From NCBI RefSeq assembly GCF_029223525.1, contig NZ_JARHTQ010000044.1, positions 1 to 49,445 on the forward strand: a DNA stretch of 49,445 nucleotides, read 5' to 3'. Below, piece after piece: positions 96 through 7,587 of the stretch; positions within the stretch are counted from its first letter, which is position 1, and each line of letters begins with the position of its first letter. The stretch comes from Streptantibioticus ferralitis (GTDB lineage Bacteria; Actinomycetota; Actinomycetes; Streptomycetales; Streptomycetaceae). Under the pieces are notes generated by a model, which was not told where the DNA came from, did not search any database, and saw only the letters and a list, made by a program, of their open reading frames with translations. A program made the position numbers and the translations under genes.

Positions 96-311
96 TCAGC
101 GGGCGGGCGGGAAGTCGCCTGCCTTGACCCCGGCCACAAACGCCGACCACGCATCGACGCCGAATATCAGGGCCGGGCCGCCCGGGTCCTTACTGTCCCG
201 AACGGGGACGACGCCGGGGAAACCAGGGGCCACCTCGATGCAGTCGCCGCCGTTGTTGTCGCTGTAGCTGCTCTTGCGCCAAGTCGCCGCGCGGAGATCA
301 TAGTTGGTCAT
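96..311 (-). CDS. DUF397 domain protein (second tandem copy)
   Basis: A 71-residue protein starting MTNYDLRAATWRKSSYS, with the family hallmarks W-R-K-S-S-x-S near the N-terminus, a GGDCIEVAPGF segment, an RDSKDP motif and a C-terminal W-x-x-F helix. DUF397 proteins in Streptomyces typically sit beside XRE/DUF5753 regulators (as in BldB/WhiJ-type pairs) and modulate them. Its ATG overlaps the TGA of the preceding DUF397 gene (ATGA), so the two are probably translationally coupled. It differs from the upstream copy at only about a dozen residues, so this is a recent tandem duplication. The longer reading from 356 is rejected because it runs back into the neighbour. Confidence 0.9.
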   Translation of the reverse strand: MTNYDLRAATWRKSSYSDNNGGDCIEVAPGFPGVVPVRDSKDPGGPALIFGVDAWSAFVAGVKAGDFPPAR

Positions 312-517
312 CGCCGGAAGTCCCCCGCCTTGACCCCCGCCACGAACGCCGACCACGCGTCAGCACCGAATATCAAGGCGGGGCCGTGCGGGTCCTTACT
401 GTCTCGGACGGGGACGACGCCGGGGAAACCGGGGGCTATTTCGATGCAGTCCCCGCCGTTGTTGCCGCTGTGGCTGGACTTGCGCCAAGTCGCCGCGCGG
501 AGATCGTGGTTCGTCAT
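308..517 (-). CDS. DUF397 domain protein (first tandem copy)
   Basis: A 69-residue DUF397 protein (MTNHDLRAATWRKSSHS start) directly after an XRE/DUF5753 regulator, the usual partner arrangement in Streptomyces. The start is placed at 517 because a GGAAGGG-like ribosome site precedes it and because it aligns with the second copy; an in-frame ATG at 541 would add eight residues (MRWKGTPI). It is read in a different frame from the C-terminal end of the XRE reading frame, with which it overlaps by about 120 bases. Predicted role: modulator of the adjacent DNA-binding protein; not proven from sequence. Confidence 0.88.
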   Translation of the reverse strand: MTNHDLRAATWRKSSHSGNNGGDCIEIAPGFPGVVPVRDSKDPHGPALIFGADAWSAFVAGVKAGDFRR

Positions 518-1349
518 TATCGGCGTACCCTTCCATCGCATCGCTGATCAAGGTGGCAGAGTCACGGGCCGAGAGCGCGTCCGCCCTCAGGAGATCATAA
601 GTGCGCGCATGCCGCGCGATCGCTGCCGGATCATCGCTGAAGTGCCCACGGTCCAAGGACTCCGAGTAGACCCACTCGTGGCCGTCGGGCAACGTGATCA
701 GCGACATCGACGTGTTCGGTGGGACCAGGTGGGCGAGACTGAACGGCGCCACCTGGATCCGGATGTTGGGCCGCTCGCCGATCGCCAGCAGGTGAGCGCA
801 CTGCTTTCGCATCACGTCGGGTCCGCCCACCTCCCGCCGGATAGAGCTCTCGTCCAGCACCGCGACCAGGAGCGGTCCTTGGTCGCTGAGGAAGCGCTGT
901 TGTCGGCTCATGCGAGCAGCAACGCGTTCCTCCAGCAGTTCTTCCTCGGACTCGACCTGAGCGAACAATGCGCGCGCGTAGACCTCTGTCTGTAACAGCC
1001 CCGGAATGAAGTGTTCTTGAAACACCCGCAACGCCACCGCCACCGCGTCCATCGACGCCCGCCGCCTGAACCAGTCGGGATGCTCCACGGCCGGATACCA
1101 GTCGATCCGGCGCCACAGCCGGAGAAGCAGCCCATCGGTGCCCAGCAGCTCGTCACACGCCTTCGCGAAGTCCTCCTGCGGCACCCGCGCACCCGTCTCA
1201 ACCCGGGTGATCAACGACCGGTCGCACGGGATCTTCCCGGCCAGATCACCCTGGCTCCAGCCTGCCCGTTCGCGGGCATCCCGCAGCACTTCCCCGAAGA
1301 CGGCTCCCGACGTGGCAGCTGGTCCACCCGCGCCGTTGCGACGGCCCAT
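396..1349 (-). CDS. XRE-family regulator with DUF5753 ligand domain
   Basis: A 317-residue protein. Residues about 15-75 form an HTH of the XRE type (FGEVLRDARERAGWSQGDLA and DRSLITRVETGARVP). The remainder is a DUF5753 region (WFRRRASMDAVAV, PGLLQTEVYARA, RQQRFL, DESSIRREVGGPDVM, SMSLITLPDGHEWVYSES). The start at 1349 has an AAGGGGAG site just upstream; the open frame extends to 1484 without a ribosome site. These proteins form regulatory pairs with DUF397 proteins, here two copies downstream. Oddity: after the expected end near LISDAMEGYADND the frame stays open for about 37 low-complexity, Arg/Pro/Gln-rich residues that are DUF397 codons read out of frame. The family normally stops near this point, so a lost stop or small indel is possible. 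Confidence 0.9.
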   Translation of the reverse strand: MGRRNGAGGPAATSGAVFGEVLRDARERAGWSQGDLAGKIPCDRSLITRVETGARVPQEDFAKACDELLGTDGLLLRLWRRIDWYPAVEHPDWFRRRASMDAVAVALRVFQEHFIPGLLQTEVYARALFAQVESEEELLEERVAARMSRQQRFLSDQGPLLVAVLDESSIRREVGGPDVMRKQCAHLLAIGERPNIRIQVAPFSLAHLVPPNTSMSLITLPDGHEWVYSESLDRGHFSDDPAAIARHARTYDLLRADALSARDSATLISDAMEGYADNDEPRSPRGDLAQVQPQRQQRRGLHRNSPRFPRRRPRPRQ

Positions 1350-2005: not shown

Positions 2006-2164
2006 CGATGCGGAGCGCTGCCGCGCCTGCGGCCATCCGGAATCGAACGCGCTTGATTCCAGACGACGTTGCGGCCCGGCATCCCACGGGGAGTGAGCAC
2101 GGCCCTCCGGAGTCATCGGGCATGGATCTTGATACCGGTTGGCAGAAAGAGGACTTGTGCAAGG

Positions 2165-2194
2165 GGGCTGGCCCGCGAGTGCGGGGGCCAGCCC
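2165..2194. terminator. GC-rich hairpin, likely terminator
   Basis: GGGCTGGCCC pairs perfectly with GGGCCAGCCC around a 10-base loop. There is no strong T-run, as is usual in Streptomyces. It lies downstream of the minus-strand methyltransferase cluster and of the short ORF ending at 2210. Confidence 0.7.
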
Positions 2195-2209
2195 GATAGG
2201 ACCGGTGCG

Positions 2210-2314
2210 CTACCTGGCGCTGTCGGCGCGATAGATCGACACGTCGCATGCGTCGGTGACGAATGCGCTGATCGGTGAGAGCAGCGCCCGGTTGGTGCGC
2301 AGGCTGCGGGTCAC
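2210..2314 (-). other. short ORF or gene remnant after the methyltransferase
   Basis: An open stretch of 34 codons from GTG 2314 to TAG, with coding-like content (reading RSLRTNRALLSPISAF then VTDACDVSIYRADSAR). It begins inside the 8-bp tandem repeat that also carries the methyltransferase stop codon, and the frame stays open into that repeat. It may be the 3' end of a lost gene or a third small peptide of the cluster. I cannot decide, and do not recognise it. Confidence 0.4.
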
Positions 2315-2340
2315 CGGCTCACCGGCTCACCGGCTCACCG
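2311..2340. repeat. 8-bp tandem repeat spanning a stop codon
   Basis: TCACCGGC is repeated 3.75 times. The TGA stop of the methyltransferase at 2327 is one of the repeated units, and identical TGA-containing units continue downstream of it. The same pattern is seen at 21771 and 38880. Confidence 0.85.
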
Positions 2341-3421
2341 TGGGTACGGGATGGTCTGGGGAGTCCAGCCATACCTGTTGGCCGTGCTGGTCGACGGTGA
2401 GGCCGAACCGGCCGCGCTCGGGCTGACCTTGTGATTCCCACCAGCGCCATGTCGCCTCTACCTCTTCCCAGAGGCGTCGCGGCCCGTACTGCTCGACCTC
2501 GAACTCCGACCGGCCCGGGACGTACTCGGCGGTCGCCCACGACTTCCCGTCGTCGGCAGTGATCCACAGGGTCGCCTCGTCGCTTCCGTCCTGTGCGAGG
2601 CCCAGGGTCGGCCAGGCGTCCCTCACCTGGGTGCCGATTGCGAACATCCCATCAGGGGAGTCGTCGATGTCGCGCGGGTCGATCCGGGTTGTGGACTTCT
2701 CGCCTTCCTCTCCGTGGTAAGCGTCATGGATGTTGCCGCTGCGTCCTCTTTGGGAGCGGCACCACATGAACGCCGGGCTTCCGGTGAACCGGCCGGTCGC
2801 GCTGCCGTCGCCCACGTCCAGGGTGGCGAAAGAATAGAAGTGGAAGGAGCCTCCCCAGGGGGTGACGATCCGGCCGCCGGGCGCCTGTTCCACCCACGCG
2901 TAGGGGATGTCCCGCACGGTGCAGGTGCATATGATCCGGTCGAACGGAGCAGCCTCGGGGATCCCCTTAGTGCCGTCACCGGTAAGAACCTTCACCTGGA
3001 GTCCGGCCGCTTTGAGGTTCGCTCGCGCCTGTTCGGCAATGGCGGGGTCTACGTCGATCGTGATGACGTTGCGAGTGCCGAGGCGTTTGCCGATCCATGC
3101 TGCGTTCAGACCGGTTCCGGCACCGATCTCGGCGACGGTGTAGTCCTCGCGTACGTCCAGGAGACCGAGCATCTGAAGCATCATCGACGGCATGGAGCTG
3201 GACGAGGTAGGCGTCCCCGAGCCGTCGCCGCCGTCATCGGTCTGGGTGACGACCGGAAGATCTCCGTACACCTTCTGTGCCCACCGTTGGTAGTCGCGGT
3301 CCTTGTCCCGGTCCTCGAAGACCGCGGGGCAGAACAGACCTCGGTCGACGCTGGCAACGGCATCAGCCCATTCGGGCAGGAGGGCACCCTTGTTGGTCAG
3401 GATCTCAACCAACCGTTTCAT
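2327..3421 (-). CDS. PIMT-like (PCMT family) O-methyltransferase, RiPP-associated type
   Basis: A 364-residue protein. Residues about 75-215 are an SAM-dependent methyltransferase fold of the protein-L-isoaspartate O-methyltransferase type: TSSSSMPSMMLQML substrate-loop region, SAM motif VAEIGAGTGLNAAWIG, TIDVDP, VLTGDGTKG, FDRIICTCTV and PGGRIVTPWG. It is much longer than a housekeeping PIMT (about 210 residues). The extra C-terminal domain ends WESQGQPERGRFGLTV, which fits the W-x3-G-x-P-x3-RFGLTV signature that I recall for RiPP-associated PIMT homologues (fuscimiditide, lihuanodin and imiditide systems). It follows a 35-residue Lys/Asp/Gly peptide gene by 15 bases. No graspetide, lasso or lanthipeptide enzyme is nearby, as in imiditide clusters. 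Predicted reaction: methyl-esterification of a peptide Asp, then spontaneous aspartimide. The start at ATG 3421 is preferred; TTG 3430 is possible. Confidence 0.85.
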   Translation of the reverse strand: MKRLVEILTNKGALLPEWADAVASVDRGLFCPAVFEDRDKDRDYQRWAQKVYGDLPVVTQTDDGGDGSGTPTSSSSMPSMMLQMLGLLDVREDYTVAEIGAGTGLNAAWIGKRLGTRNVITIDVDPAIAEQARANLKAAGLQVKVLTGDGTKGIPEAAPFDRIICTCTVRDIPYAWVEQAPGGRIVTPWGGSFHFYSFATLDVGDGSATGRFTGSPAFMWCRSQRGRSGNIHDAYHGEEGEKSTTRIDPRDIDDSPDGMFAIGTQVRDAWPTLGLAQDGSDEATLWITADDGKSWATAEYVPGRSEFEVEQYGPRRLWEEVEATWRWWESQGQPERGRFGLTVDQHGQQVWLDSPDHPVPTVSR

Positions 3422-3436
3422 CGTGGTCAAGGCACA

Positions 3437-3544
3437 TCACTTCTTCGGGTTGCTGATGGGCTTGTCCCACTTGCCGTCCGATTCCTTCGGCGACTGCTTC
3501 TTGTCGCCCTCGCTGCCACCCTTGCCATCTCCGTGTTTGGCCAT
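3437..3544 (-). CDS. 35-residue Lys/Gly/Asp-rich peptide, candidate imiditide-type precursor
   Basis: ATG at 3544 is preceded by GGAGGA at ideal spacing. The product begins MAKHGDGKGGSEGDKK and ends with the segment KWDKPISNPKK; it has about ten lysines and no cysteine or hydrophobic core. Two Asp-Gly pairs (residues 6-7 and 23-24) are the chemically favoured sites for aspartimide formation. It lies 15 bases upstream of the PIMT-like methyltransferase on the same strand, so the two should be co-translated. Strongly charged, unstructured precursors paired only with a PIMT homologue are what is known for imiditides (NmaA/NmaM). Peptide identity and modification site are inference. Confidence 0.75.
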   Translation of the reverse strand: MAKHGDGKGGSEGDKKQSPKESDGKWDKPISNPKK

Positions 3545-3573
3545 CAGCTGTTCCTCCGTTGTGGAAGTGGCTG

Positions 3574-3741
3574 TCAGTTCGAGGTCTCATCGAGCGGGAT
3601 CGGCGCCGGATCAGGACCGGGGCGTGGACCGGAGGGGCGCGGAGGACTTGGATTGCTCGGCGGTGTCGGCTTCCCGGGACTGAGGCCCAGTGCAGCCCGT
3701 ATGAGGAGGTGGCCGAGCTTCGGGCTCTTGAGATCGGTCAT
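3574..3741 (-). CDS. 55-residue proline-rich peptide, function unknown
   Basis: ATG at 3741 has AAGGGCAG upstream. The product has a basic, helix-prone N-terminus (MTDLKSPKLGHLLIRAALGL) and a Pro/Ser/Gly-rich second half ending PIPLDETSN. It ends 29 bases before the lysine-rich peptide gene, on the same strand, so it is probably part of the same transcript. It could be a second precursor, an accessory peptide or a separate small gene. I do not recognise a family. Confidence 0.55.
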   Translation of the reverse strand: MTDLKSPKLGHLLIRAALGLSPGKPTPPSNPSPPRPSGPRPGPDPAPIPLDETSN

Positions 3742-3860
3742 GTGGCATCTGCCCTTCATTGGTGGGTGGCATCGCAAGGCCCCCCTTGCGGGTCGCCGCA
3801 AACCACACGCCGCGGCCCAGGGGCGCTCCGCTTCATCCCGGGCCGTGGGGCGGCCCGTGG

Positions 3861-4085
3861 TCACCGGAACTCTTCGATCGAATCTGGGTCAGTGGTCCAG
3901 TCCAGCCCGCCCTGCTCAGGCGCAAGCCATGCCAGTAGAGGGCCTTCGAAAGCACGATGACTGCGCCCACCCGTGCGCCGGTCGATGTCCAGAGCGATGG
4001 CCCCGCAGCACACCAACCCGGCCGCCGTGAGCGAGGTCCACGACGCGGCGCCCCAACCACGGATGCTCCAGGTGACGCAGCCCAA
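3861..4085 (-). CDS. possible small membrane protein upstream of the peptide genes
   Basis: An open frame of 74 codons with coding-like third positions. It contains one hydrophobic stretch (ASWTSLTAAGLVCCGAIALD) and an acidic C-terminus (DWTTDPDSIEEFR). The only start I find is TTG at 4085, since an in-frame TGA lies 15 bases upstream; an ATG-started frame from 4149 to 3916 overlaps it in another phase. A frameshift or a misjudged start is possible. It is co-directional with the peptide/methyltransferase genes. Confidence 0.4.
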   Translation of the reverse strand: MGCVTWSIRGWGAASWTSLTAAGLVCCGAIALDIDRRTGGRSHRAFEGPLLAWLAPEQGGLDWTTDPDSIEEFR

Positions 4086-4319
4086 GATCGCGCCTGCTCA
4101 TGCGGATCGGTGTCTGCTTCATCTGGGGCATGTGCATCGGTGGCTCCTCGTCACTCGTTGCTGTTTCACGTCGATGCGCAGACGACCGTAAGCGGCAGGT
4201 GCACCAAGTCCCAAGCAGATTGCGCGAGTTTGCAGCAAGTTGATTGACGGGCTCGGATGCCTCCCCGACGATCGACGTGTCGTGCAAACCCGCGCAAACG
4301 AGCAGACGGGAAAGCCGCC

Positions 4320-4727
4320 ATGAAGTTACGGTTCCTTGGCAAGAACAGCACGCCGGGCGACAGCCCTACCCTGTATGCCAGCGACAAGGACAGCTACGTC
4401 ATCCAAGGCTGGAAGATCTACGCCCAAGACATACTCAGCCAGCTCGGCGTGCCGACTGGTCAGACCGCCGTCGAGGTACCGACCGAACTGTTCGAGCACC
4501 TGACGAAGGACGGTCACACGTCCGGTGCAATCGCTAACTTCTCCGCCCCGATCATGCTCGTCACCGAGCACGGCACGTGCATCCTGCAAGGCCCCGAGAT
4601 GGATGACCCCGAGGCCCTGAGCCAGATGCGCATGCCCGACTACGAGACCTGCATCGAGGTCCCCAAGTCCTCGATCACGGCCCTGCTGGAGGGAAACAGT
4701 GGACCTGATCACCCCGGCCGAGCGTGA
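4320..4727 (+). CDS. hypothetical protein of a DUF6879/XRE cassette
   Basis: A 135-residue soluble protein starting MKLRFLGKNSTPGDSPTLYA at ATG 4320, with GGGAAAG upstream. It contains a W-K-I-Y and PTELFEHL segment and an acidic second half (GPEMDDPEALSQMRMPDY). It overlaps the next gene by 29 bases, and the three genes 4320-6085 read as one operon, an arrangement I recall as recurrent in Streptomyces. The function is unknown; a role as partner of the linked XRE regulator is inference. Confidence 0.8.
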   Translation: MKLRFLGKNSTPGDSPTLYASDKDSYVIQGWKIYAQDILSQLGVPTGQTAVEVPTELFEHLTKDGHTSGAIANFSAPIMLVTEHGTCILQGPEMDDPEALSQMRMPDYETCIEVPKSSITALLEGNSGPDHPGRA

Positions 4728-5223
4728 CGAGCTGTTCAACAGCTTCGAACGAGACGCCTTCCACATGGAGTTGAGGGACGACTACGGGTCACCCATCGAA
4801 GACACCCCCTATGCCCGGTGGCAGAGTGGCGAGCCCGACGACTACGCGTGGTTGGAGCCCTGGAAGACGCTGATGCGGCGTGTCACCAGCGAGGGAAAGA
4901 CCGTCCGACGAGTGCGCGTCGTCACGCAACCCCACTCCCAGTACGTCGGCTGGGAGCACTCGCTGACCCACATCAACCTGGAGGTCGGCGAGGACATTCG
5001 ATGGCTACCGCGGCACCGGCTGCCCGGGAACGTGGTCTTCCCCGTGAACGGCAACGACTGGTGGCTGTACGACGATCGCCTGCTAGCCGTCGGCCACTTC
5101 GATCCCGAGGGTAGCGTTCTGGGGTCAGAGATCATCGAGGACCCCGGCATCGTGTCCGAGTGCATCAAGGTGCGCGACCTGCTCTGGGGTGCCGCCATCC
5201 CACACTCCGAGTACAAGCCCTGA
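4699..5223 (+). CDS. DUF6879 family protein
   Basis: A 174-residue protein from GTG 4699, with GGAGGG eight bases upstream. It matches my recollection of the DUF6879 family: an N-terminal ERDELFNSFERDAFHMELRD segment, then RRVRVVTQPHSQYVGWE, then WLPRHRLPG, and a DWWLYDDRLLAVGHFDPEG block. It is cytoplasmic, with no catalytic motif visible. Genes of this family are regularly coupled to XRE/DUF5753 regulators in Streptomyces, as here, and may modulate them in the way DUF397 proteins do (inference). Confidence 0.85.
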   Translation: MDLITPAERDELFNSFERDAFHMELRDDYGSPIEDTPYARWQSGEPDDYAWLEPWKTLMRRVTSEGKTVRRVRVVTQPHSQYVGWEHSLTHINLEVGEDIRWLPRHRLPGNVVFPVNGNDWWLYDDRLLAVGHFDPEGSVLGSEIIEDPGIVSECIKVRDLLWGAAIPHSEYKP

Positions 5224-5230
5224 CCCATCA

Positions 5231-6085
5231 GTGAGCAATCAAGCACAAGAAGCACGAGAGGCGTTGGGTGCCCGGCTTCGCGCGTTCCGCAAGGATGCGG
5301 GATTCGCGAGCGGCCGGGCATTCGCCATGGCCACAGGGTGGGCCGAGTCAAAGGTCTCTCGGATCGAAAACGGCAAGCAGAACGCCAGCGAAGAAGACAT
5401 CCTCCTCTGGTGCATCAAGACCAACAACCAAGTACACACACAGGACCTGATCGCGACAGCCCGCCATATCGATGAGCTGTGGCTTGAGTGGCGCCGTCAG
5501 CTTCAGACGGGGGCCGAGAAGCGGCAGAGCAAGGCCCTACAGGTCTACGCCAAGACCAAGGTCTTCCGTATCTGGCACCCCACGGTCGTGTGGGGCACAC
5601 TCCAGACGGCCGAGTACGCAGCGGAGACGTTCAAACAGGTCGTCGACTACTACGAGATCCCCAACGACACTGAAGCCGCCGTCGCCAAGCGACTTGAACG
5701 ACAGCGATACCTGTACGAGGGCAACCGCATCTTCAACGTGCTCCTCGGCGAGCAGGCCCTCTACTCCAACTTCGGCGGCCCGGACGTGATGAAGGGACAA
5801 CTCGACCGACTCTTGGCGGTGATGCGACTCCCACGACTGAGCCTGGGAATCATCCCGAGATCAGCACCGGTCAAGATCTGGCCCGGCAACTCGTTTTCCA
5901 TGTTCGATGACAGGCTCGTCCTCGTTGAGACGTACTCGGCAGAATTTTCGGTCACCCAACCCCGAGAGGTCGATCTCTACGCCAAAGCATTCGTCCTTCT
6001 CAAACAGTCAGCCGTGTACGGGCGCGGAGCCAGAGAACTACTCCTGTCCGCAAGCCATCACTTTGACAGGCAGTCACGCAAGTAG
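5231..6085 (+). CDS. XRE-family regulator with DUF5753 domain
   Basis: A 284-residue protein from GTG 5231, eight bases after the previous stop; no strong ribosome site is visible, so it is probably translated by coupling. Residues about 8-65 form the HTH (LGARLRAFRKDAGFASGRAF, SKVSRIENGKQNASEEDI). The rest is a DUF5753-type region (YAKTKVFRIWHPTVVWGTLQ, RLERQRYLYE, EQALYSNFGGPDVM, NSFSMFDDRLVLVETYSAEF). It is the third gene of the cassette and the presumed DNA-binding component. Unlike the XRE gene at 396-1349, its partner is DUF6879 rather than DUF397. Confidence 0.9.
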   Translation: MSNQAQEAREALGARLRAFRKDAGFASGRAFAMATGWAESKVSRIENGKQNASEEDILLWCIKTNNQVHTQDLIATARHIDELWLEWRRQLQTGAEKRQSKALQVYAKTKVFRIWHPTVVWGTLQTAEYAAETFKQVVDYYEIPNDTEAAVAKRLERQRYLYEGNRIFNVLLGEQALYSNFGGPDVMKGQLDRLLAVMRLPRLSLGIIPRSAPVKIWPGNSFSMFDDRLVLVETYSAEFSVTQPREVDLYAKAFVLLKQSAVYGRGARELLLSASHHFDRQSRK

Positions 6086-6116
6086 AGGCGGCATCCTGCC
6101 CAGGCAGAACTGACGT

Positions 6117-6301
6117 GCCGTCGGCGGTGGTCGACCGTTCGCACGTCCCGTACCTGCCCCCGGGAGCCAAGGTCCCGCCGTGCCCGTTCCCGTGCTCCAT
6201 CTGTCGGGCCAAAGGGCGGCAGTGAGCCATCCGCGCCGCCCGTGAGGCCATGAGCACCCGCCCTGGTCACCGTGGAGGGACAGCCGGTGACCGGGGCGGG
6301 C
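6117..6301. repeat. right copy of 185-bp direct repeat with truncated gene copy
   Basis: A near-identical copy of 1821-2005. The first 109 bases encode the last 35 residues of the 49-residue protein (SHVPYLPPGAKVPPCPFPCS region) up to its TGA at 6225, but the start and N-terminus are missing, so this copy is a gene fragment. It begins 31 bases after the stop of the XRE gene. Confidence 0.85.
6261..6296. repeat. dispersed hairpin repeat, copy 2
   Basis: CCCTGGTCACC pairs with GGTGACCGGGG (one G-T wobble) around a 14-base loop. It is the same element as at 1965 and 9550. It lies between the truncated gene copy and DUF6247. Confidence 0.75.
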
Positions 6302-6370
6302 AGACGCCGTTTGACCTGTGGCCAGAGACAAGGCATCTCGGCTTCCATACGAGGACAGAGGGAGAACGAG

Positions 6371-6727
6371 ATGACGGCGCACCCTGCTGACCACGACGGG
6401 CCGACCATTCCCAGACCCGAAAAGACGTTCACCGCGCTGCACGCCGCCCTCGCACAGGTAGCGCCTTCCAGGCTGCCGGAGATGACAGCCGAGCGTGACA
6501 CCGTGTTCACGATGGCCACCCAGCACAACAGCTTCGGGTCGATCGCCATGTTCCAGCTCAAATGGGCCACTGTGATCGAGGTCGAGCGTCTTCCGGCCGT
6601 GGCCCGGCGCCTGCACGCCGCGGAGCAGGCCGCGCAGAATGCAGAAGACCGCGAGGCCCTTGATCACGCGATGCGTGAGATCCGGGAGATCATGGACCAC
6701 GCGCGGGCACAGGTGGCCGGCGAGTGA
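6371..6727 (+). CDS. DUF6247 family protein
   Basis: A 118-residue protein from ATG 6371 behind GGACAGAGGGAGAA. It fits DUF6247 as I remember it: a short N-terminal PIPRPEKTFTALHAALAQV-like segment (here TIPRPEKTFTALHAALAQVA), LPEMTAERDTVF, then KWATVIEVERLPAVARRLHA and an Ala/Glu-rich terminal helix. It is helical, acidic and cytoplasmic. Its stop overlaps a GTG (GTGA) that probably began a coupled partner gene, now broken. The family is often small and paired, which suits an antitoxin-like role, but that is speculation. Confidence 0.8.
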   Translation: MTAHPADHDGPTIPRPEKTFTALHAALAQVAPSRLPEMTAERDTVFTMATQHNSFGSIAMFQLKWATVIEVERLPAVARRLHAAEQAAQNAEDREALDHAMREIREIMDHARAQVAGE

Positions 6728-6979
6728 CTGGGCGTCTGGGAGTAACTCCCGGACGCGCACCATGTCATCGGCGATACCCCGAACCTCGCCCTCATTGCCC
6801 AGATCGAGGAGCGCGCGGACGAACTCGTTCGCGCGGCGGCGGTCGAATACCCGGACGGAACCGCCTACCAAGGCCACTCCCCCGGCCAGCGTGACGAAAT
6901 CGTGCCCAATGGCATGTTCGAGTACCTGACGATCGTCAGGCACGAACGGATCCACATCACCCAGATCACGGCGTACTAG
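6724..6979 (+). pseudogene. broken partner gene downstream of DUF6247
   Basis: GTG 6724 overlaps the DUF6247 stop but its frame soon turns non-coding. From about 6746 another frame, with no start codon of its own, reads as good coding sequence for 77 codons (NLALIAQIEERADELVRAA, then YPDGTAYQGHSP, then MFEYLTIVRHERIHITQI) to TAG 6977. A frameshift or deletion near the palindrome at 6733-6755 would join the two. The intact protein would be about 85 residues, of a size that suits a toxin-antitoxin partner. The end overlaps the convergent CGNR gene by four bases. Confidence 0.6.
6733..6755. repeat. perfect 23-base palindrome
   Basis: CGTCTGGGAGT and ACTCCCGGACG are complementary (one T-G pair) around a single central A. 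It sits exactly where the frame of the broken gene changes, six bases after the DUF6247 stop. It could be a terminator or a scar. Confidence 0.7.
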
Positions 6980-7587
6980 GCCCCGCGTGTGCGCTCGTAG
7001 TGGCGGGCGACCCTGACCCGGTTGCCGCACACGTTGGCCGCGCACCACGTCCGCCGCTTGGTCGCGGCGAGAAACAGCATCGAGCAGGACGGATTCGCGC
7101 ATCGCCGCAGGGTGGCCAATCGCGCGGGCGAGGCGAGCAGTTCGATGGTCTCGTGGGCGACGGCGGCGAGGGCGGCGTTGCCGCCGTGCTCCGTGTGCCA
7201 GCGGGTCTGCGTGGTGGTGCCGGTCCCGGTCCTGACGATGCGCGGGCTCGTGGGCACGGCCGCCGCAGCCGCGTTGATGTCCTCGATGGAGGTGTCCTGA
7301 GGGGGCCGGCCGGCCAGGTGGGCGTCGAGTACGTCACGGATCGCGGCCCGAAGCGCTCGGGTGGCCTCAGGGCTGGGGGTGGGCCCTTCGGGTAGCCCTG
7401 GCGCCTGCAACTTCCACCAGGTCACGCTGGTCGCCAGCGAGTCGATCAGGTCGACCGGCGGTTGGGCAGCGAGCATCAGGGTGTCCGCAAGGTCCAGGGC
7501 GGCCAAGGGTTCGCCCCCCATCGGAAAGCCGGCGCGCTGCATGTCCTCAAGCCGAGGCCGTTTCGTCATGCACTCCATGTTACCCAT
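6976..7587 (-). CDS. CGNR zinc-finger regulator (ABATE domain)
   Basis: A 203-residue protein. Residues 10-145 form the variable N-terminal ABATE-type ligand region, and the C-terminus holds the zinc finger, with CANPSCSMLF, then WCAANVCGNRVRVARHYER, containing the C-x4-C spacing and the CGNR signature. Proteins of this family act as stress-responsive transcription factors. ATG 7587 is preceded by GGAGGAGGGA. It is divergent from the alpha/beta hydrolase pair at 7819, so it may control it. A cluster of TTAGGC/CTAACG motifs lies in the shared promoter region. Confidence 0.9.
   Translation of the reverse strand: MGNMECMTKRPRLEDMQRAGFPMGGEPLAALDLADTLMLAAQPPVDLIDSLATSVTWWKLQAPGLPEGPTPSPEATRALRAAIRDVLDAHLAGRPPQDTSIEDINAAAAAVPTSPRIVRTGTGTTTQTRWHTEHGGNAALAAVAHETIELLASPARLATLRRCANPSCSMLFLAATKRRTWCAANVCGNRVRVARHYERTRGA

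Follow-up and report, generated by a model that had tools for sequence, protein, structure and literature searches.

The closest described systems are the two-gene type I pamtides (imiditides). SpaM methylates an Asp of the linear peptide SpaA (PMC10787088 section 2.5), and NmaM is reported to methylate an Asp of a linear peptide (PMC13001092 section 'Imiditides'). The latter review counts 1,414 type I pamtides. The role of the Asp conversion is largely unknown (Kim and co-workers, PMC10787088 section 3), and the 2026 review by Zhu and Link describes the aspartimide as an enigmatic group, for which discoveries are still awaited on if or how it gives biological function. The DNA analysed here, referred to as the window, is the whole stretch of 49,445 nucleotides from Streptantibioticus ferralitis (NZ_JARHTQ010000044.1). 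It contains a locus that we read, with a probability of about 0.7, as a type I pamtide operon controlled by a WhiJ-like regulatory triad. The features of the locus are collected in Table 1.

Table 1. Positions of the operon, the operators and the triad genes in the window
Feature	Position	Strand	Details
PAMT, PIMT-type O-methyltransferase, 364 aa	2327..3421	(-)	EIGAGTG at 98, SSSSMP at 73-78, WxxxGxP at 328-334
35-aa predicted pamtide/imiditide precursor	3437..3544	(-)	MAKHGDGKGGSEGDKKQSPKESDGKWDKPISNPKK; candidate site D23 (SDGKW), alternative D6
55-aa Pro-rich ORF, possible second precursor	3574..3741	(-)	C-terminal motif PSGPRPGPDPAPIP
Predicted promoter facing the peptide-PAMT operon	4185..4234	(-)	TGCAAACTCGCGCAA (TGCAA-N5-CGCAA) 4234-4220, N29, TACGGT 4190-4185
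Second operator copy	4283..4297	(+)	TGCAAACCCGCGCAA; 22 bases 5' of the first triad gene; predicted autoregulation
Triad gene 1, small protein family	4320..4727	(+)	no Pfam or NCBIfam match; 96 bits to the model built from these loci
Triad gene 2, DUF6879 protein (PF21806)	4699..5223	(+)	5.5e-58
Triad gene 3, XRE HTH + DUF5753, WhiJ-like	5189..6085	(+)	GTG start 5189 or 5231

The pair described in an earlier note on this DNA is present as claimed. The Lys/Gly/Asp-rich peptide of 35 residues has a good ribosome site (GGAGG, 8 bases 5' of the ATG), and a gap of exactly 15 bases separates it from the open reading frame of the 364-residue PCMT-family methyltransferase, which carries the expected C-terminal motif (W328-ESQ-G-Q-P-ERG-RFGLTV) with WESQGQPERGRFGLTV near the enzyme end. 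The peptide contains 9 Lys, 6 Gly, 4 Asp and 3 Pro among its 35 residues and has a net charge of +3. As in type I pamtide precursors, it is short, directly upstream of the enzyme and rich in residues of the Gly/Pro/Asp/Lys set, of which Pro contributes only three, with charged ends and a conserved Asp beside Gly/Pro. The peptide is devoid of Cys, and the two CxxCxGxG motifs of type II pamtide/cysimiditide precursors are absent.

The enzyme is a PIMT homologue with an extra C-terminal domain of more than 100 residues and the WxxxGxP motif of the type I pamtide enzymes, in which W328 and P334 are invariant in nine aligned sequences. Its best NCBIfam match is the ATP-grasp-system methyltransferase model TIGR04188 (297.3 bits, 1.9e-88), at a score under the 380-bit cut-off of that model. 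The FxLD-system methyltransferase model gives 122 bits, the four repair-PIMT models listed give 76-91 bits, and Pfam PCMT (PF01135) matches at 8.6e-28. These scores and the extra C-terminal domain favour a place outside the housekeeping PIMTs, the grouping that the earlier note had named as a refutation. The structure model of PAMT (nine sequences, mean pLDDT 75, pTM 0.76) shows a PIMT core followed by a C-terminal strand-helix-four strands-helix arrangement (b-a-b-b-b-b-a), which matches the order described for the C-terminal domains of PAMTs (PMC10787088 section 2.2); residues 249-279, which contain the first C-terminal helix and the next strand, are modelled below pLDDT 50. The top Foldseek match of the model is the T. 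maritima PIMT (1dl5; E 3e-18, TM ~0.53, r.m.s.d. 7.9). An enzyme tree was built from 58 rows, leaving out enzymes with stops or shorter than 800 bases. The enzymes of the peptide loci form two supported clades (5 and 14 rows), and in each of them one row carries a different peptide. The two clades were not taken as proof of peptide swapping, because the tree is poorly resolved at its base and they may be sisters. E. coli Pcm, the sole repair enzyme in the tree, sits on a long outside branch, and its placement was flagged as unsure.

Seven enzyme matches in the source genome, counting that of the window, span most of the query, and the genome holds two copies of the 35-residue peptide. A near-copy of the pair lies on another contig (G000:C110:46363-47577), with 89% identity in the enzyme and 97% in the peptide; its triad is co-directional and upstream. 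Five further PAMT relatives are found on contigs C56, C33, C17, C64 and C40 of the same genome, with no DUF6879 triad in the fetched stretches around them. The enzyme on C56 has one in-frame stop, and the ORF upstream of it starts with MGWGTGKGGSGGDGKHAGG and contains SPDG.

Of 200 family genomes searched, 18 have the 35-residue peptide, at 21 places in all, window included. PAMT is immediately downstream at all 21 places, broken into pieces in two of them; the conservation check named in the earlier note thus came out in favour of its reading. Eight residues (D6, G7, G10, G13, D14, D23, G24 and W26) are invariant in the 20 of 21 rows used for the alignment and the codon test, from which L061 was left out. 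The codon comparison indicates that purifying selection acts on the peptide, which evolves as a protein (pN 0.154 and pS 0.456 over 190 pairs, pN<pS in 189/190). The resemblance exceeds chance: the peptide of L043, in another genome, is 91% identical, whereas the enzyme beside it is only 39% identical, and 23 of 23 core residues agree despite changes in 11 of 69 bases. Over the 18 of 21 loci taken for this comparison, median identity is 73% for the peptide and 46% for the enzyme, and peptide identity exceeds enzyme identity in 145 of 153 pairs, a difference inflated because the locus set was gathered by peptide similarity. A class-wide search of 394 genomes found at least two with the peptide, both from the same family; short matches may be missed in it because, among the matches listed, no genome had more than 19 candidates scored. 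The DNA composition of the window showed nothing decisive, and a literature text search with the peptide letters returned no related paper, judged by title. The reading as an imiditide-type pair is supported by the score of the RiPP model above those of the repair PIMTs and by the constant adjacency of peptide and enzyme.

The second, Pro-rich peptide of 55 residues claimed upstream was also confirmed as an ORF, with a weaker ribosome site (GAAGGG). As a conserved family it was rejected: 22 of 200 genomes matched at E<=0.01, mostly inside long open frames and none below 0.001 besides itself, so the matches are attributed to low complexity. The ORF was kept as a possible second precursor because its 14-residue motif is found again in one related locus, where PSGPRPGPDPAPIP recurs as PTGPRPGPDPQPIP upstream of PAMT (L069, G002:C85). 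Other short Pro-rich ORFs stand just 5' of the precursor, with PDDLPTRTPARPP in L042 and close forms in L053 and L062. The Pro-rich ORF could encode a second substrate.

Twenty triad-PAMT loci without the 35-residue peptide were fetched for comparison. A short ORF with DG precedes PAMT in 14 of the 20, plus two more. These other precursor types keep DG in the C-terminal part (SPDGSTP, TSDGSGP and HDGRRD; examples ..GHPGTPWTPPEEPPSPDGSTPPGDGDHRK and ..GHGGGGSDEGGNTSDGSGPADGK). D23 is favoured over D6 because the DG common to the other precursor types lies C-terminally, as D23 does. Thus, on this comparison D23 in D-G-[QK]-W is the likeliest modification site.

The earlier note had called the cluster minimal. 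This description needs amending, since the pair is accompanied by a DUF6879/XRE triad that recurs among the loci and has a promoter design in common. The XRE regulator (HTH_31 2.5e-10, DUF5753 5e-30, recognition-helix stretch ESKVSR) has the DUF5753 domain of the WhiJ/BldB pairs; no DUF397 gene adjoins it, its immediate partners being the DUF6879 protein and the unnamed small protein. Within 3 kb of the 21 peptide places, DUF6879 is found at 14, XRE at 12, the small gene at 13 (the seeds of its model and of the sister models included the window and some of the loci later scored) and all three at 11; six places have no triad part within this distance. The usual order on one strand is small gene, DUF6879, XRE, peptide, PAMT, and the triad of the window is divergent. 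The association was also counted in 21 family genomes that are near-complete and were selected on their contig number; three of them (G016, G019 and G065) have the peptide as well. In this set, 15 of 115 PAMT relatives have DUF6879 within 3 kb vs. 0.71 expected, counted over all rows with one broken enzyme (G099) taken as two, and 14 of 73 do so vs. 0.47 expected when at least 100 bits are demanded. Conversely, only 16 of the 103 DUF6879 genes have a PAMT relative within 3 kb and the other 87 have none, so the triad is regarded as a general regulator.

A second regulator set is located in the window at 96-1349(-), comprising an XRE/DUF5753 gene (396-1349) and DUF397 genes (96-311 and 308-541); the pamtide locus thus sits between two XRE systems. 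A direct repeat of 191 bases, 95% identical, flanks the peptide-PAMT-triad locus (1821-2011 and 6117-6307), and only two partial, weaker matches to it were found elsewhere in the genome. The repeats may mark a cassette insertion or possible excision.

Comparison of the triad loci revealed a rigid element, YGCAA-N5-YGCAA-N29-TANNNT. The operator YGCAA-N5-YGCAA stands 5-6 bases past the XRE stop codon in 19 of 52 triad loci vs. a Markov-model expectation of 0.24. TANNNT follows at exactly N29 in 19 of these 19 operators, in the strict form TASSKT in 14, at a background of 0.0008 per position. Operator density in the same loci reaches 6.1 per kb over the 60 bases that follow the XRE stop codon, against 1.25 per kb 5' of the small gene and 0.006 per kb in the remainder. 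The 33 loci without an operator after XRE include four divergent loci, and some others have visibly different repeats. Of 47 loci, 12 also have the operator 5' of the small gene. There, TTGAC precedes it by 26-28 bases in 7 of the 12, a placement expected for repression; in the window the distance is 34 bases, a departure that counts against the operon reading. In the four truly divergent loci (the window, L090, L099 and L102), the operator aims at PAMT with TANNNT at N29; six pairs had been listed, and L047 and L091 were set aside as having a co-directional triad between and no operator.

The operator, counted anywhere at the locus, goes with the recognition helix of the XRE protein: it is found with 25 of 38 K-x-S-R types, 0 of 10 K-types and 1 of 4 unclassed helices (Fisher test p 1.7e-4, which ignores kinship). 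As a genome-wide mark the operator was rejected, with 25 matches vs. 26 for a backward-pattern control. The bare operator, not being enriched genome-wide, is informative only in place. The source genome has four DUF6879 loci, and three of these account for five of the 25 matches. Among 20 triad loci fetched that have no PAMT, five show the same promoter after XRE.

The sequence itself shows the order of the genes, the conservation, the family of the enzyme, the linkage to the triad and the rigid element of operator and promoter. XRE binding, the direction in which control runs, the modified Asp and its chemistry are inferred as follows. The XRE protein would bind the direct repeats TGCAA-N5-CGCAA. 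At the operator copy before the small gene it probably acts as a repressor of its own triad, whereas the copy facing the operon is probably where it activates the promoter whose -10 box lies exactly 29 bases on. The activated promoter would drive the Pro-rich ORF, the 35-residue peptide and PAMT. PAMT would then methylate a single Asp in the linear peptide, with D23 of S-D-G-K-W as the likeliest target, and the methyl ester would close to an aspartimide that opens to isoAsp or Asp. Folding of the peptide and PAMT as one chain gave no docking information, with the peptide at pLDDT 31-36.

Several other explanations were weighed against this operon reading. PAMT has the PIMT fold and a PCMT domain, and the T. 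maritima PIMT likewise has a C-terminal extension (PMC13001092 section 11), as would suit a housekeeping or stress-type isoaspartyl repair enzyme with an incidental ORF upstream. However, the RiPP model scores far above the PIMT models, the adjacent peptide is under purifying selection, and the genome has seven matches rather than one, which makes a repair enzyme highly improbable. The strong conservation of the peptide would also be in keeping with a small regulator or inhibitor of PAMT, whose substrate would then be another protein, such as a triad member; PAMTs adjoining FHA-domain proteins, possible protein substrates, were described by Kim and co-workers (PMC10787088 section 2.3). This is quite unlikely, as DG is kept both in the other precursor types of the same slot and in the 20 aligned peptides, and as peptide modification has been demonstrated for SpaA/SpaM, a type I pair with the same two-gene layout.

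The triad, peptide and PAMT might instead constitute a conflict module (toxin-antitoxin or anti-phage) with the peptide as effector. The patchy spread over the family, the two copies in the source genome and the flanking 191-base repeats are consistent with such a module, as is a match of PADLOC mad2 to PAMT (E 1.1e-16), and XRE/DUF397 pairs were once proposed as toxin-antitoxin systems (PMC10364602, in the text available). However, the mad2 match is limited to 88 residues of the SAM domain, PADLOC has no match for any of the three triad proteins, and according to the available text of the same paper XRE/DUF397 pairs were not toxic when tested; a conflict module is accordingly improbable. Finally, the triad and its operator could regulate something else, with the pamtide genes merely travelling alongside. 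That most DUF6879 genes have no PAMT relative nearby and that the promoter also occurs after XRE in PAMT-free loci fit this explanation. It is nevertheless considered unlikely, as in the four truly divergent loci the element aims at the PAMT side and not at the gene after XRE. We therefore infer control of the pamtide operon by the XRE protein.

As to the function of the product of this operon, the strong conservation of the peptide leans towards a signal or regulatory role. An ABC-transporter gene lies directly behind PAMT in 2 of the 21 peptide loci, namely L042 (the near-copy in the source genome; 4628-6523(-)) and L056 (5021-6946(-)); the proteins have 631-641 residues and are 39% identical over 610 residues. 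An argument from the lack of a linked exporter was withdrawn on this ground, and a purely internal role is disfavoured because of these two loci. No ABC-transporter gene was seen behind the PAMT of the window, and no exporter or protease common to the peptide loci appeared in the neighbour clusters examined (crude gene calls). It is a tentative and fairly improbable idea, lowered slightly in probability by the two transporter loci, that such imiditides are not antibiotics but the switchable output, possibly a feedback ligand, of a widespread WhiJ-like regulator, with an Asp/aspartimide/isoAsp timer at Asp23 resetting the XRE/DUF6879 switch or a conserved hyphal target. The place of the pair beside a recurring switch is a hint that peptides of this kind may serve as controlled signals and not simply as antibiotics. 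With a named regulator, a base-exact promoter and a conserved peptide, the function of the aspartimide becomes experimentally approachable, and DUF6879 gains a working context. The locus raises the questions of which condition opens the promoter and what effect the loss of the peptide or of its Asp23 would have.

Comparisons with known systems place the locus as follows. Related PAMTs occur in the graspimiditides (graspetide group 13; fuscimiditide and amycolimiditide). However, no ATP-grasp gene was found among the window ORFs scanned, the TIGR04188 score is below the cut-off, and the precursor is uncyclised as far as the genes tell. The earlier statement that the window has no other RiPP enzyme holds for the sample of 17 distinct window ORFs scanned; no primary RiPP enzyme of another class was present in the neighbour clusters common to at least 4 of 31 loci (crude gene calls). 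According to the available text of PMC13097080, genes for DUF397 and DUF5753 may accompany graspetide groups 11 and 13. In L095, an MvdD-type pre-ATP-grasp protein (28.9 bits, cut-off 27) is encoded between triad and PAMT (4987-7085). The layout of L096 (about 4558-7033) looks similar by reading, with the full operator-promoter present and no ATP-grasp-type match in the piece scanned. A viral-collection contig (L127, about 2040-4122) has an apparent radical-SAM gene, recognised by eye, with a Cys/Pro-rich tail directly 5' of PAMT, an arrangement that resembles the rSAM-PAMT pairs described by Kim and co-workers (PMC10787088). The T. maritima PIMT, the best structural match, aligns over nearly the whole chain but with 22% identity, and has only some of the RiPP-enzyme features (PMC13001092).

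Similar to the WhiJ/BldB regulators and WhiJ9-iosA, the locus has a small gene as partner of an XRE/DUF5753 regulator. The control proposed here resembles that by WhiJ9, a protein that binds direct repeats and through which the neighbouring gene iosA is activated (PMC10294661, in the text available). Unlike in WhiJ9-iosA, the partners here are DUF6879 and the unnamed small protein, the repeats are TGCAA-N5-TGCAA rather than CGxxCTCAAC, and the output is a RiPP operon. XRE and DUF397 do not occur in the main text of Kim and co-workers or in the available main text of Zhu and Link, and the literature searched contained neither a link of XRE-type control to imiditides nor a mention of DUF6879. 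The closest systems are SpaA/SpaM and NmaA/NmaM, with which the window pair shares the two-gene layout without a cyclase and the short linear Gly/Lys/Asp-rich precursor 5' of a PIMT homologue with C-terminal domain and WxxxGxP, and it may belong among the 1,414 type I pamtides. It differs from them in the strongly conserved precursor subfamily MGKHGDGKGG..ESDGQW, beside which SpaA and NmaA were set by description only, and in going with the DUF6879/XRE triad and a rigid promoter. Thus, as pamtides are already catalogued and the XRE/DUF397/DUF6879 link was not found in the literature searched, the class is known, and the regulatory association of the DUF6879/XRE triad and its promoter with the pair is the new part.
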